NCBI RefSeq assembly: GCF_033366695.1
Contig: NZ_JAOBTQ010000001.1
Location: 2,666,001 to 2,730,000, forward strand
Direction of reading: 5' to 3'
DNA: 64,000 bases
Source of the DNA: Streptomyces sp. SCL15-4
Lineage (GTDB): Bacteria > Actinomycetota > Actinomycetes > Streptomycetales > Streptomycetaceae
A model generated the notes under the pieces. The model searched no databases, was not told the origin of the DNA, and was given only the letters and a program-made list of their open reading frames with translations. Both the position numbers and the translations under genes were made by a program. Shown piece after piece: positions 29,100 to 36,065 of this stretch (position 1 is the first letter of the stretch; each line of letters opens with the position of its first letter).

Positions 29100-32000
29100 T
29101 CACCCCTTCTCCAGGTACTGCTCCCGCTCCTCGTCCAGCAGGGCGTCCAGGGCCGTGCGCAGGCCCGGGAGGCGCTCCAGCTCCGGGTCGGCCGCCACGG
29201 CCGCCGCCGCCTCGGCCCTCGCCTCCGCGATGACCTCCTCGTCCTCGATGACCGCGAGGACCCGCAGGCTGGAGCGGGCGCCGGACTGGGCCTGGCCCAG
29301 GACATCGCCCTCGCGGCGCTGTTCGAGGTCGATGCGGGACAGTTCGAAGCCGTCCAGGGTGGCGGCGACCGCGTTCAGCCGCTGGCGGGCCGGGCTCGCC
29401 TCGGGCATCTCGGTGACCAGGAGGCACAGGCCGGGGGCGGAGCCGCGGCCGACCCGGCCGCGCAGCTGGTGCAGCTGGGAGACGCCGAAGCGGTCCGCGT
29501 CCATGATGACCATGGCCGTGGCGTTCGGGACGTTGACGCCGACCTCGATGACGGTGGTGGCGACGAGGACGTCGGTCTCGCCGGCCGCGAAGCGGCGCAT
29601 CACGGCGTCCTTGTCGTCGGGGTGCATACGGCCGTGCAGGGCCTCCACCTTCAGGCCCTTGAGGGGGCCGCGGCCCAGCTGGTCGGCCACGTCGAGCACG
29701 GCCAGCGGGGGCCGCTTGTCCGCCTCGCCCTCGGCGGGCTTCTTGCCGGCCTTCTTCGGGTCGTCCTCCTCGTCGCCGATGCGCGGGCAGACCACGTACG
29801 CCTGGTGGCCGGCCGCGACCTCCTCGCGGACCCGTTCCCAGGCGCGGGCCAGGAAGTGGGGCTTGTCGGCGGCCGGGACGACATGACTGGCGATCGGGGA
29901 GCGGCCCGCCGGGAGCTGGTCCAGCACCGAGGTCTCCAGGTCGCCGAAGACCGTCATGGCGACCGTGCGCGGGATGGGCGTGGCCGTCATGACGAGCAGG
30001 TGCGGTGGCTGTCTGCCCTTGCTCCGCAGGGCGTCGCGCTGCTCCACGCCGAAGCGGTGCTGTTCGTCGACCACCACCAGGCCGAGGTCGTGGAAGCGGA
30101 CCTTGTCCTCGATCAGGGCGTGGGTGCCGATGACGATGCCGGCCTCGCCGGTGGCGAGGTCGAGCAGGGCCTGACGGCGGGCCGCCGTGCCCATCGAGCC
30201 GGTGAGCAGCACCACCTTGGTGGCGTGCTCGGCGCCGCCCGGAACGGCCTCCCGCCGCCCGTCGCCGTCCTTCCGCGCAGGCGCTTCGCTCCACAGCCCC
30301 CAACCGGCCAGCTCCCCCATCATCTCCGTGATGGACCGGTGGTGCTGCTGGGCGAGCACCTCGGTGGGCGCGAGCATGGCCGCCTGACCCCCCGCGTCGA
30401 CCACGGCGAGCATGGCGCGCAGGGCCACCATGGTGTTGTGGGTGACCGTGAAATGGTCGGTGACGTACGCGTGGCCCGGGTGGGCGACGCTGATGCACTG
30501 GACCGGCTTGCGGCCCACGTACTCCACCGCCCGGATTCCCCGCCGGAAGGTGTCGTTCGTCGGGCGGGGCCGTACGCGGTCGGCCTTGCGGGTGAGCCTG
30601 AAGGGTGCGAATTCGCCGGGCAACGCGACGGAGACGTCGAAGGCGGACCGCTTCGGCAGCACCCGCGCCCGACCGCCCAGGGACCGTACAAGCCATGCGA
30701 CATCGTCCGCGAGCCCGCGCGAGGCCGAGCACAGGGAGATGCTCGTTCCGTCCCGCCGAACCGTGCCGTCCGTGTCCAGGAGCCCCTGAAGGAGGGCAAG
30801 ACGGTTCTTGATCGACGTGTTCTTGAACTCGGCGGGGATGAACGTGTCGTGTGACGTCAGCCCCCGGAGACCGAGGTCACGCAGGATCTGGATCACTGGA
30901 TTCCGGATGTCGCCCGAGCGCCTTGCCGACTGGATCGTGAAGTCGCACGGAGAGCCCGGGACGGGCACGAGACGGCAGTCGGGAGCGACCGACGCGGCCA
31001 CGGCTTCGTGGATCTCCGGGTCGGCAGTGGACAGGCGCAGGTCGTGCCGGAACGAGCCGGCCCCGAGGAGCACTCCGAACAGGTAGGGGTCGAGCGGGAG
31101 TCCCGAGTCGTCGCCGAGGTCCACCGGGGTCGCCGCCGGGATGTACCACTTCGACGACCCGTCGGCCTCGAACAGATCGTGCCGGATCTCCCGCGTGGTC
31201 AGCACCTCGGGCGACCGGCCGCGATGCTCTCCGCTGCTGGTGCCGACGATCCACAGGTGCTCGTCATCGCATTCCACAGAGCTTCCGTCGGAGAGCACCA
31301 TCCGCCACACGTCGCGCTCGCCCTGTGGAAAGACTCCGTCGACCACGGCGATGCCGCCATCGGGCACGACGACCTCGTGGCCCACCCGCATATCGCCCAT
31401 GCGCCGGAACCCCGCGGGGGTCAGCACCAGCGCGTCCAGCGGCTGGGCCTTCCCCGAGCCGACCTCGCCCTGGAGCAGGCGGTGCATCGGGTGGGGCGTG
31501 GCGAGGTCGTCGAAGATCTCGCGGGAGACCTTCCGCTGGCCCTCGGTGAGGGTGAAGGGAAGGCGGTCGTCGAAGGCCGCGAGGAGGCCGTTGGGGCCGG
31601 GGACGCGGGGCACGGCGGGCAGGTGGGTCTCGGCGTGCCGGCGGCGGGCCAGGGCGACCTGGAGGACGAAGGCCTCGTCCCACTTCAGGCGGGCGCGGGC
31701 GTCGGCGATGTCGGCCTTGGTGTGCGGCCGGTGGATCTTGAGCAGGGCCTCCGGGAGCGGGAGCAGGCCGCGGCCGGCGCGCAACGACTCCGGGAGCGGG
31801 TCCAAAGCCTCCCGGGCGCTGGGCAGCACCGTCTGGACCGCCTTGCCGATCTTCCAGGACTCCAGTTTGGCGGTCGCGGGATAGAGCGGGATCAGGGCTC
31901 CGGCCCAGGACTCCACGGCCTCCTCGCCCTCGCCGTCGCCCCGCAGCAACTCGTAGGCCGGGTGGGCGAGCTGGAGGCGGCGGTTGAAGACGGACACCTT

Positions 32001-32366
32001 TCCGGCGAACATCGCGCGGGTGCCCGGCAGCAGGTCCTTGTGGGGTTTGTGCACGCCGGCGCCGAAGAAGACGAGCTGGAGCCGGCCGCTGCCGTCCGTG
32101 ATCGTGACCTCCAGGCGCTGGCCCTTGCCGCGGGGGGCCCTGGCCGAGGCGAAGGTGTGCAGCCGGGCGTCGGCGACCTGGGCGACCACCGTGACGTGCT
32201 CGTCCATGGGGAGGTCGGCGAGGTGGGTGAGCTGGCCGCGCTCCTCGTATCTGCGCGGGTAGTGGTGCAGCAGGTCGCCGACGGTGTGCAGGCCGAGATG
32301 CTCGGCCATCACCTTCGCGGTGGCGGGGCCGAGCACCTTCTTGAGCGGTTCTTGCAGTGCGGGCAC
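29100..32366 (-). CDS. recG: ATP-dependent DNA helicase RecG, intein-containing precursor
   Basis: RecG rewinds and remodels stalled forks and branched DNA. The 1088-residue precursor is about 340 residues too long. Residues 1-306 carry the wedge/OB domain and end in the Walker A GEVGSGK. Residues 307-644 are an intein, and the helicase resumes at Thr645 (TMVALRAM). The two exteins total 750 residues, a normal RecG length. Later motifs are intact: [35 protein letters not shown]. The GTG start gives [13 protein letters not shown]. Because the insertion splits the ATP-binding lysine from the following threonine, RecG should be inactive until the intein is spliced out. First gene of the long leftward operon-like run. 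Confidence 0.95.
30435..31448 (-). other. class 3-type intein in the RecG Walker A motif
   Basis: This codes for 338 residues between Lys306 and Thr645 of RecG. It starts with Ala, not Cys or Ser ([14 protein letters not shown]). Block B is [14 protein letters not shown] with His64 and Trp66. Block F is [18 protein letters not shown] with Cys318, and block G is TVTHN with Thr336, His337 and terminal Asn338, followed by extein Thr. Trp, block-F Cys and block-G Thr form the WCT signature of class 3 inteins, in which the block-F Cys is the first nucleophile. A LAGLIDADG endonuclease domain is inserted (motifs near intein residues 123-131 and 220-228). The first reads LFGVLLGAG with Ala in place of the catalytic Asp; the second, LQGLLDTDG, keeps it. 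Confidence 0.92.
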
Positions 32367-32981: not shown

Positions 32982-35900
32982 ATGAGTGGGATCACGGACA
33001 TCGACGCGCTGCGTCAGGCGCTGGCGGAGAACTCCGAGGAGCCGGAGGGACCGGCCCGCAACGCGCGCGCGGAGGAGCTGCTCGCCGAGGCGGAGCGGCT
33101 GGACGTCCCGCTCGCCGTGATCGAGGCGCTCGGACACCAGCTGAGGGTCTACCACCACAGCTCCGAGAAGGACAAGATGTTCGTCCCGTTCGCGCGGCTG
33201 CTGCGCATGTGGGACGAACGGCCCGAGGACTTCGACGAGTACGAGACGCACTCGCTGCACTGGGTCTTCAAGTGGATGTCGGCGGGCATGCTGGACCAGC
33301 CGCACATCCCGCTGGACTCGATCGAGAAGTGGCTCGGCGAGATGGAGCGCCGCTACCGGCTCGCCGGGCACTCCGAACGGGCCGTGCGCGGCGCCGAGTT
33401 CAGCGTGGCCGCACACATCGGAGACCTCCCGCGCGCGCGGCGGGCGTACGCCGCGTGGCTGGCCGCCGACCGGGACGCGATGGCCGACTGCCCCGCCTGC
33501 GAGCTGCGCCGGCAGGGTGGCTGGCAGGTGCGGTGCGGCCGGGACGCGGAGGCGCTGCGGCTGTGGCGGCCGGTGCTGGAGGGCGAGTTCGCCTGCGCGC
33601 ACGAACCGCACTCCGTGCTGGCGTCCTCGCTGGCCCCGCTGCTGCGCCTCGGCCGGCTGGAGGAGGCCCGCGCGCACCATCTGCGGGGCTTCCGGCTGGT
33701 GCGGCCGATGGAGAGCATGCGGGCCGCGTACGCCGACCACGTGGAGTTCTGCGCGCTGACCGGGAACGAGGCGCGCGGCCTGGAACTGCTGGCCGAGCGG
33801 CCGGCGTACTTCACCGACACCGGGCATCCGCGCAGCGGGCTCGACTTCCTGGCCGTGGTGGCGCTGCTGATGGACCGGCTGGCCGAGCGCGGGCTCGGCG
33901 GGCAGCGGGTGCCGGGCCCGGCCGGGCGGACCTGGACGGCGCGGGAGCTGGCCGCGCACGCGCGCGGGGCGGCGACGGAACTCGCCGCGCGGTTCGACCA
34001 CCGCAACGGCACGTCCGCCGTCGGCGACCGGGTCCGGGCGCGGATGGACCAGCGGCCGCTGGTGGAGCGGCTGCCGCTGGGCATACGGGCGGTACGGCCC
34101 GCCGCGGTGCCGCCGGCCGCGCCGCCGGCGCCGGCGGCCTCCGGGGAGCCCGGGCTGACCGCGCTGCTCACCGAGGCGCGGCGGCAGTCGGAGACCCTGC
34201 GGCCGCACGCGCTCCAGGCGTGGGCGGCGGTGGCGCGGGCCGCCGGGGACACCGAACTGGAGCCGCGTGACCGCGCGGAGATCGCCGACCACGAGGCGAT
34301 GGCCCGGGGCCCCGAGGGCATCCCCTTGTTCGAGCGCGCGGCCCGGCTGTACGCGGAGGCGGGCGACCCCGGGGAGGCCCTGGCGGCACGCGCGCGGGGA
34401 GCGTACGTACGCGCTCTGTCGGGCGAGGTCGAGCCGGCCCTGACCACGGTCGCCGTGCTGTACGACGAGGTGCTCGCGCTGTACGCCGACGAGGGCACGG
34501 GAGTGCGCCAGACGGCATCGGTGGCGATGAGCCGGGCCCGCGTCCTGATGCGCCGGGTCCACGCGGCGGTGGAGGCGGACGCGGGGACGGGCGGCGCGGG
34601 CGTGGACGCCGCGGGCATCGCCGCCGACGGGCCGCGCGCGGACGCCGGCCGGGAGGCCGTGGCCTCCCGGCCGGCCGACGCGGGCGCGGGGACCGGAGGG
34701 ACCGGTGCCGGTGCCCGGCGACCCGGTGCGGATCTCCCCCGTGCCGTCGCCGAGGCCGAGGCGGCCGTGCGGGAGGTGCTGGCGCTCGTCGAGGGGCGCG
34801 GCGGGGGCGAGGTGCGGCTGGCGGCGCGGGCCGCCGAGGCACGGGGGATGCTCGCCGAGCTGGCCGGGCTCACCGGGAACGCGCGGCGGGCGGCGGAGCT
34901 GTTCCGGCGGGCCGCCGACGGGTACGCGGCCGCCGGGGTGCCGTGGTTCGCGGTGGAGTACGAGGTCCAGGTCGCCGCCCTCGCCCACCAGGCCGGTGAC
35001 CTCACCGGGGCCGAGCGCGCGCTGCGGGCGGCGCTGGAGCACGGCGGGCCGTACGTGGAGCCGGTCGGACGGGCACAACTGCACCTCCAGCTCGCCGAGG
35101 TGCTCGGTGCGCTGGACGCGCCCGGCGAGGCCTCCGAGCACGCGCTGGAGGCCGCGCACTGGGCCGACGAGGCGGGCGAGGGCGGCACCGTGGGCGCCTG
35201 GGCGCGGCAGCGGCTGGGCGGGTTCCTGCTGCGCCGGGGCCGGTACGAGGAGGCCGCCGAGGTGCTCCGGTCCGCGCTGGCCGACCTGAGCCCGGGCACG
35301 CACGGCGACGAGGCGGTGGTCCAGGCCCGCTGGTGGCTCGGGGACTGTCTGGGCGAGCTGGGCGAGCACCGGGCGGCCGCCGAGGAGCGGCTCGGGGCGG
35401 CCGAGCTGGCCCGGCACTGGCCCGAGCAGCAGGACCACGCCACGCTCGCCCACCTCGCCGCGGAGTCGCTGGGCAGCGCCGGTCTGACGGCCGAGGCGGA
35501 CCGGGCCTACGCGCGCGCGGGCGAGCTGTGGCGCGCGCTCGGCAACGCCCCGTTCCTGGTCCGTTCGCTGCGCGCCCGGGCCTGGCTGGCGCTGGGCGGC
35601 GAGTCCGGGTCGGCGTCCGCCCGGGCGCTGATGACGCAGGCGGTACGGGCGTGCGAGACGGCGCTGGCCGCCGCCCGGGGCCCGGACCGGGCCGAGCTGG
35701 CCGAGGAACTCGGCGACACGCACCGGCAGTTCGCCGAGCTGCTGGCCCGCTCGGCGTCCGAGGAGGCCGAGGACGCGGCGATCCGGGCCGCGTTCGAGGC
35801 GGCGCTCGGGCAGATGAGCCGGGCCGCGGCGGTGTTCACCACGCTCGGCGAGGCCGGGCTGCACGGCCGTACCGGCGCGGAACTGGGCGCGGGCTGGCTG

Positions 35901-36065
35901 GAGGCCGACCTCGGCCGTCCGCGGCGGGCACAGGCACGCGCGCGTGCGGTGCTCGCGGTCTACGCGGGCGCCGACGAGGCGGACGAGACGGTGCGGGCCC
36001 GGCGGGAGGAGGCGGCCCAGATGCTCCAGGCGACCCAGGAGGGAACACCTCCGGAACGGCCCTGA
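32982..36065 (+). CDS. large tetratricopeptide-repeat protein of unknown function
   Basis: A cytoplasmic protein of 1027 residues, almost entirely helical with many degenerate TPR units (for example AAELFRRAADGYAAAGVPW, YEEAAEVLRSALADLSPG, EADRAYARAGELWRALGN). The N-terminus (MSGITDIDALRQALAEN) is distinctive, and a Cys pair occurs in MADCPACELRRQGGW. An Ala/Gly-rich linker lies near residues 530-590. No enzyme domain, signal peptide or membrane segment is seen, so it is probably a protein-binding scaffold or regulator. The ATG has a strong ribosome site. It lies between recG and the DAK2 gene, a pair that is adjacent in many bacteria, so it may be a lineage-specific insertion. Converges on the DAK2 gene with a 13-bp gap. 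Confidence 0.75.
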   Translation: MSGITDIDALRQALAENSEEPEGPARNARAEELLAEAERLDVPLAVIEALGHQLRVYHHSSEKDKMFVPFARLLRMWDERPEDFDEYETHSLHWVFKWMSAGMLDQPHIPLDSIEKWLGEMERRYRLAGHSERAVRGAEFSVAAHIGDLPRARRAYAAWLAADRDAMADCPACELRRQGGWQVRCGRDAEALRLWRPVLEGEFACAHEPHSVLASSLAPLLRLGRLEEARAHHLRGFRLVRPMESMRAAYADHVEFCALTGNEARGLELLAERPAYFTDTGHPRSGLDFLAVVALLMDRLAERGLGGQRVPGPAGRTWTARELAAHARGAATELAARFDHRNGTSAVGDRVRARMDQRPLVERLPLGIRAVRPAAVPPAAPPAPAASGEPGLTALLTEARRQSETLRPHALQAWAAVARAAGDTELEPRDRAEIADHEAMARGPEGIPLFERAARLYAEAGDPGEALAARARGAYVRALSGEVEPALTTVAVLYDEVLALYADEGTGVRQTASVAMSRARVLMRRVHAAVEADAGTGGAGVDAAGIAADGPRADAGREAVASRPADAGAGTGGTGAGARRPGADLPRAVAEAEAAVREVLALVEGRGGGEVRLAARAAEARGMLAELAGLTGNARRAAELFRRAADGYAAAGVPWFAVEYEVQVAALAHQAGDLTGAERALRAALEHGGPYVEPVGRAQLHLQLAEVLGALDAPGEASEHALEAAHWADEAGEGGTVGAWARQRLGGFLLRRGRYEEAAEVLRSALADLSPGTHGDEAVVQARWWLGDCLGELGEHRAAAEERLGAAELARHWPEQQDHATLAHLAAESLGSAGLTAEADRAYARAGELWRALGNAPFLVRSLRARAWLALGGESGSASARALMTQAVRACETALAAARGPDRAELAEELGDTHRQFAELLARSASEEAEDAAIRAAFEAALGQMSRAAAVFTTLGEAGLHGRTGAELGAGWLEADLGRPRRAQARARAVLAVYAGADEADETVRARREEAAQMLQATQEGTPPERP

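Follow-up and report, generated by a model that had tools for sequence, protein, structure and literature searches.

A probable class 3 intein with a degenerating homing endonuclease in the RecG helicase of Streptomyces sp. SCL15-4

How does a cell obtain a working RecG helicase from a gene whose Walker A motif is cut in two, and what is the insert that cuts it? We address this question for recG of Streptomyces sp. SCL15-4, located in a 64,000-nucleotide stretch of contig NZ_JAOBTQ010000001.1 (positions 2,666,001 to 2,730,000; hereafter the window, whose own coordinates are used below). The gene occupies positions 29100-32366 on the minus strand, with a GTG start and 1088 codons plus stop, and an in-frame insert parts the Lys of Walker A from its Thr (GSGK/A...THN/T, slashes marking the junctions). 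We consider it very probable that this insert is a class 3 intein whose LAGLIDADG homing endonuclease is degenerating.

The host protein is RecG, as it scores 1095.5 bits against the NCBI model NF008167 (cut-off 995). According to the translation, the precursor consists of an N-extein of 306 residues ending in ...LLQGEVGSGK (31449..32366), an insert of 338 residues (precursor residues 307-644; 30435..31448), and a C-extein of 444 residues plus stop (29100..30434) that begins with Thr+1 (30432-30434), all on the minus strand. The same bounds had been proposed in a sequence-only reading of this DNA, together with a spliced RecG of ~80 kDa and an intein of ~37 kDa; the calculated masses agree, being 81.1 kDa for spliced RecG (750 residues), 36.8 kDa for the intein, and 117.9 kDa for the precursor.

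Class 3 inteins are defined by Trp at B:12, Cys at F:4, and Thr at G:5 (PMC5222942, PMC3196547), hereafter the WCT signature. The window intein begins with Ala1, hence not with Ser, Thr or Cys, and contains the block B His64, Trp66 at B:12 (31251..31253), Cys318 at F:4 (30495..30497), which is the predicted initiating nucleophile, and Thr336-His337-Asn338 at G:5-G:7 (30435..30443), followed by Thr+1. An AlphaFold model of the intein, with a predicted local distance difference test score (pLDDT) of 92, matches the HINT fold of solved class 3 inteins, and it also matches PI-SceI along the entire length. The best PDB sequence match is an engineered gp41-1 intein with a grafted WCT signature (6riz, 3e-7), after which come the native gp41-1 intein (6qaz, 7.7e-6) and, at 3.7e-5 to 2.1e-4, the class 3 DnaB inteins of M. 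smegmatis and M. chimaera. Every sequence feature and modelled fold feature of class 3 inteins that could be tested supports the assignment, which the sequence-only reading had already made. A model of the whole 1088-residue precursor, computed with 45 close RecG sequences, reached a pLDDT of only 44 and was left unused.

The comparison with relatives argues that the insert is neither a chance arrangement nor a fixed RecG domain. The intein query has a match in 123 of 392 Streptomyces genomes (E 0.001), and 71 genomes have RecG-like matches, chosen by frame length and identity among the matches listed. Empty sites, identified in the same 392 genomes with a joined 78-residue junction query, were found in 317 genomes. 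The two genome sets do not overlap, and only four unresolved genomes (G001, G050, G099, and G119, the last with the C-terminal part of RecG present) belong to neither, so that at most four inserts were missed. Ala1, Trp, the block F Cys, THN, Thr+1, and the junction are common to all 71 RecG inserts, and the site is uninterrupted in 317 genomes; the insert is therefore not a product of chance. The inserts comprise 45 full-length copies (336-339 residues) and 26 shortened or eroded ones (247-327 residues); their ends were set by alignment, except in two cases (L062, L069) set by the HN[STC] pattern.

By analogy with homologues, the insert would fold after translation as a HINT domain, Cys318 would attack the Lys306-Ala307 bond, the acyl group would move to Thr+1, and Asn338 would then cyclise, releasing a joined RecG of 750 residues with an intact GSGKT P-loop. 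The host genome has a single match to the intein sequence, and a joined RecG junction query (E 1e-25) found no second, uninterrupted RecG in it. Given the split P-loop, and with no other RecG found in the genome by this search, active RecG should depend on splicing. The sequence-only reading held that RecG is dead until spliced, which fits both observations and, being drawn from sequence, is better worded as an expectation.

The sequence-only reading did not mention an endonuclease. Residues ~118-289 of the intein (30582..31097, bounds judged visually from the alignment) form a LAGLIDADG domain, with matches to PF14528 (LAGLIDADG_3, E 1.7e-7) and PF05204 (Hom_end, 1.5e-4); its fold is present according to the PF14528 match and the fold match to PI-SceI. 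However, only one of the two motifs in the window copy has its catalytic Asp: block C reads LLGAGSF, with Ala130 (31059..31061) where most relatives have LLGDGSF, while Asp227 of block E (LLDTDG, 30768..30770) is kept, as in 44 of the 45 full-length copies. Both Asp residues are kept in 37 of these 45 copies; the block C Asp is replaced by Ala in two (the window and L020), Gly in three, and Val, Glu and Asn in one each, and Asp227 is lost in one. Ala130 also occurs in the 97%-identical protein P0002, whereas P0003 of S. achromogenes, 91% identical, has Asp there, which suggests a recent loss in the window lineage. Because the block C catalytic Asp became Ala, homing has probably been lost in this lineage; splicing, judging from the retained residues, has probably been kept. 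In the 26 other inserts the endonuclease is shortened or eroded and the splicing residues are intact. At a single recG site in a single genus, the empty sites and the full-length inteins with both Asp, point-mutated inteins and shortened inteins thus constitute a natural decay series.

Since the split from P0003, the window lineage has accumulated 17 derived residues in the intein and P0003 none, compared with 17 and 13, respectively, in the exteins (Fisher p 0.0015; scored where 42 other rows gave a 60% majority). An alternative count with five outgroups gives 20 and 0. These 20 changes lower the net charge by 8 (e.g. K81E, K94E, K202T), although three of them gain Arg (Q78R, W195R, Q231R); a weakened DNA binding would fit this drop.

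The endonuclease presumably once copied the insert into empty recG genes at the same site. Among the 45 full-length copies, the splicing part exceeds the extein in synonymous difference in 971 of 990 pairs (medians 0.557 vs 0.329), and the GC content at third codon positions (GC3) is 0.825 in the intein vs 0.947 in the extein. A group of 12 species (L057-L060, L063-L067, L069-L071) differs: its inserts of 247-273 residues have a ruined block C and Gly in place of Asp227 in all 12, the median synonymous differences are 0.258 in the splicing part and 0.260 in the extein (splicing part higher in 25 of 66 pairs), and GC3 is 0.945 in the intein and 0.931 in the extein. The simplest reading, which these data suggest, is transfer by homing for the full-length copies and long vertical residence for the 12-species group. 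In that group, the ratio of nonsynonymous to synonymous substitution (dN/dS) is 0.283 for the splicing part and 0.163 for the extein; the splicing part is thus less constrained than the extein, yet its ratio is well under 1. The corresponding values in full-length copies are 0.085 (splicing part), 0.154 (endonuclease), and 0.132 (extein).

We also analyzed a host tree of 141 RecG rows (71 with the intein and 70 of the 317 empty ones), with 43 weakly supported branches among its 138 inner ones. Intein presence changes at least 27 times on this tree, compared with a mean of 47.5 after shuffling, and the starred branches force 11 changes. The 12 species form one clade (support 98), and the window groups with the empty copies L081 and L110 (98). 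The C-extein of the clade was then searched against the 392 genomes and ten high-scoring empty copies, including the two closest (G349 and G048), were added. In the enlarged tree the clade holds at lower support (89), and the empty copy L347 (from G349) is its sister (98 for the 13). With these ten copies added, no sign of a precise loss appears within the clade; one just outside it is possible.

Several points weigh against the proposed history. Part of the excess synonymous difference of the full-length copies may stem from the intein's lower GC3 and not from transfer, and since a lower GC3 leaves more room for synonymous change, the contrast is suggestive and not proof. The asymmetry of 17 to 0 depends on one sister, P0003, and on polarity set by majority, and recent replacement of the P0003 intein by homing would produce the same asymmetry. 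The idea that changes in the window lineage cluster in the endonuclease was tested and rejected (endonuclease 11 of 172 sites, splicing part 8 of 147, Fisher p 0.81). With one of its Asp residues replaced, a LAGLIDADG enzyme might still nick or bind DNA. Finally, we infer the splicing of the window RecG from its homologues.

Outside the genus, RecG inteins were found in several actinobacteria. Among 150 genomes of the family, RecG-like matches by identity and frame length occur in two other genera (G870 and G779); the junction was read for G870, and G779 and G763 (a 605-residue frame) are known from match data. Further cases in the protein database come from Kitasatospora and two Actinomadura, and the best 80 of 528 matches in named genome contigs are all RecG (79 Streptomyces and one Actinacidiphila). 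A RecG with this intein was parsed from 161 of 199 database proteins, all 161 with Ala1, Trp, Cys, and THN; two of the 38 unparsed proteins are annotated as RecG (P0156, P0168). P0122 and P0123 have an identical intein, P0123 being labelled as from a Nanopelagicales metagenome-assembled genome. In the class, 104 of 394 genomes match the intein query (E 1e-8); none of the 18 loci read outside the genus in this search is RecG, 17 being PhoH-like and one (L154) another P-loop protein.

The PhoH-like proteins of many actinobacterial genera have inteins with class 3 ends at IEVAPLAYMRGR/A...THN/T, outside Walker A. They include L073-L077, L079, and the 17 loci outside the genus (L156-L161, L163, L164, L166, L167, L169-L171, L173, L175, L176, L178). 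We take the hosts to be PhoH from their flanking sequence.

Three Rhodococcus plasmids have an intein match of 45.8% identity over the whole length. The plasmid read is 300 kb long and typed as mobilizable (NZ_CP120357.1, R. rhodochrous), and its host protein is RecG-like (L345:3603-7280; 1225 residues with a long N-terminal extension). The class 3 intein of this protein, 353 residues long, occupies the same site and has the two endonuclease Asp residues, and two tyrosine recombinase genes lie directly downstream. A jump from an unrelated plasmid helicase was considered and dropped, because the Rhodococcus 'helicase-related protein', which matches at 30 of 36 bases around the junction, is itself RecG-like: RecG models score up to 647.7 bits (each listed one under its curated cut-off), and PF19833 is above its cut-off. 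The occurrence of the same intein in a plasmid-borne RecG points to a possible route by which it spreads.

In trees of 101 and 39 inteins, built without a class 1 outgroup, RecG inteins form one clade (100; 100/98) that adjoins the L154 intein (86; 98/95) among viral inteins. L154, from a different family of the class, is the closest non-RecG relative in these trees; its intein is 45% identical and lies in Walker A (AHPVGAGK/T) of a 2042-residue frame with Helicase_C. From IMG/VR contigs we took the best 80 of 591 loci (L185-L264) and parsed 78 inteins; HxW, the block F Cys, and THN occur in all 78, and 68 lie between GK and T/S, although these signature counts are favoured by the scan patterns (one of which holds HLW) and by the parse on HN ends. 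Class 3 inteins are abundant in viral P-loop proteins. INPHARED contains 605 matching records, none of them with at least 60% identity. A phage or plasmid source of the RecG intein is likely, with no donor found in these searches; a possible descent of class 3 inteins from a phage intein was proposed earlier (PMC3196547).

The intein may also be asked to do more than persist. Conditional splicing, raised in the sequence-only reading, would make it a stress switch that keeps RecG inactive under oxidation or zinc, as H2O2 inhibits splicing of the class 3, P-loop intein DnaBi1 of M. smegmatis (Msm DnaBi1; PMC6195587) and zinc inhibits splicing of mycobacterial DnaB, according to the title of PMC7360933. 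Cys318 is invariant, and Cys60 (31269..31271, beside the block B motif DDEH) is the only other near-invariant Cys (69 of 71 RecG inserts) and a possible disulfide partner. However, the DnaBi1 sensor is an internal Cys48-Cys118 disulfide (PMC6195587), and by pairwise alignment the Cys48 position is Val47 in the window, Val in 70 and Ile in one of the 71 inserts (with a Cys among residues 41-53 in one); the exact DnaBi1 switch is therefore absent from the window intein. The evidence for gating is limited to chemistry shared with DnaBi1; there is no Cys in the 300 N-extein residues before the window junction, and 317 of 392 relatives live without the intein, so that we regard a stress switch as unlikely. 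The 12-species clade retains its splicing residues after losing both endonuclease motifs, yet a cell that needs RecG has to keep these residues in any case. The same clade, where the endonuclease motifs are gone, the intein diverges in step with the gene, and none of the ten added empty copies falls inside (although one is its sister), is the basis for a broader proposal that RecG inteins are kept for a benefit, with splicing-timed RecG as a repair switch and the window as a first step towards it; this too we hold to be doubtful.

A loss of splicing in the window, leaving RecG dead, could be read from the 17 derived residues against none in the sister, but it is very unlikely, as none of the listed changes affects residues 1, 61-66, 318 or 336-338 and the reading frame is open. 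Another view takes the insert as an additional RecG domain that stays in place. It has in its favour the in-frame occurrence in many species and is hardly credible, given that the insert parts the P-loop Lys from Thr, that the site is uninterrupted in 317 of 392 relatives, and that the splice residues are invariant even in copies eroded to 247 residues.

The neighbourhood of recG includes a large divergent gene upstream (32982-36065, plus strand, 1027 residues), whose only match, to TPR, falls short of the Pfam cut-off (PF13424, 1.3e-4), and, on the other side, methyltransferase (PF03602) and cytidylyltransferase-like (PF01467) genes.

RecG is already known as an intein host, and the window intein taken alone is an ordinary class 3 intein. 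The sequence-only reading knew of no described Streptomyces RecG intein; public records do contain the insert for many Streptomyces, S. avermitilis and S. scabiei among them, and InBase probably has an entry for an S. avermitilis RecG intein. RecG is listed as a host in Table 1 of a 2018 review, the organism being given only as 'Eubacteria' (PMC5874633), the one mention of inteins in PMC1193525 is in a figure legend and does not concern RecG, and PMC5050341 does not mention RecG. Judged by title or start of abstract, none of the listed open-literature papers on inteins and Streptomyces deals with RecG inteins, most subscription papers lying outside this search. In the culturable Streptomyces, both the homing cycle and the question of constraint versus benefit for immobile inteins become testable.

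As a class 3 intein with a decaying endonuclease, the window insert can be placed among known systems. The RecG inteins of S. avermitilis (P0196), S. scabiei (P0170), S. achromogenes (P0003), Kitasatospora, Actinacidiphila, Actinomadura, and the Rhodococcus plasmid share its insertion point and signature; those of the named inteins that were read keep both endonuclease Asp residues, whereas the window and P0002 have lost one. The viral class 3 inteins of P-loop proteins have other hosts and at most 43-44% identity to the window intein among the matches listed. Msm DnaBi1 and M. chimaera DnaB-1 (6bs8, 6rix/6riy) resemble the RecG intein in WCT, DxxH and fold at 28-31% identity; Msm DnaBi1 also shares the P-loop location, but it lacks an endonuclease and has Ser at +1, whereas the RecG intein has an endonuclease domain and Thr+1. 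PI-SceI (the VMA intein), which we take to be a class 1 intein, combines a splicing domain with a LAGLIDADG endonuclease as the RecG intein does, at 17-18% identity.
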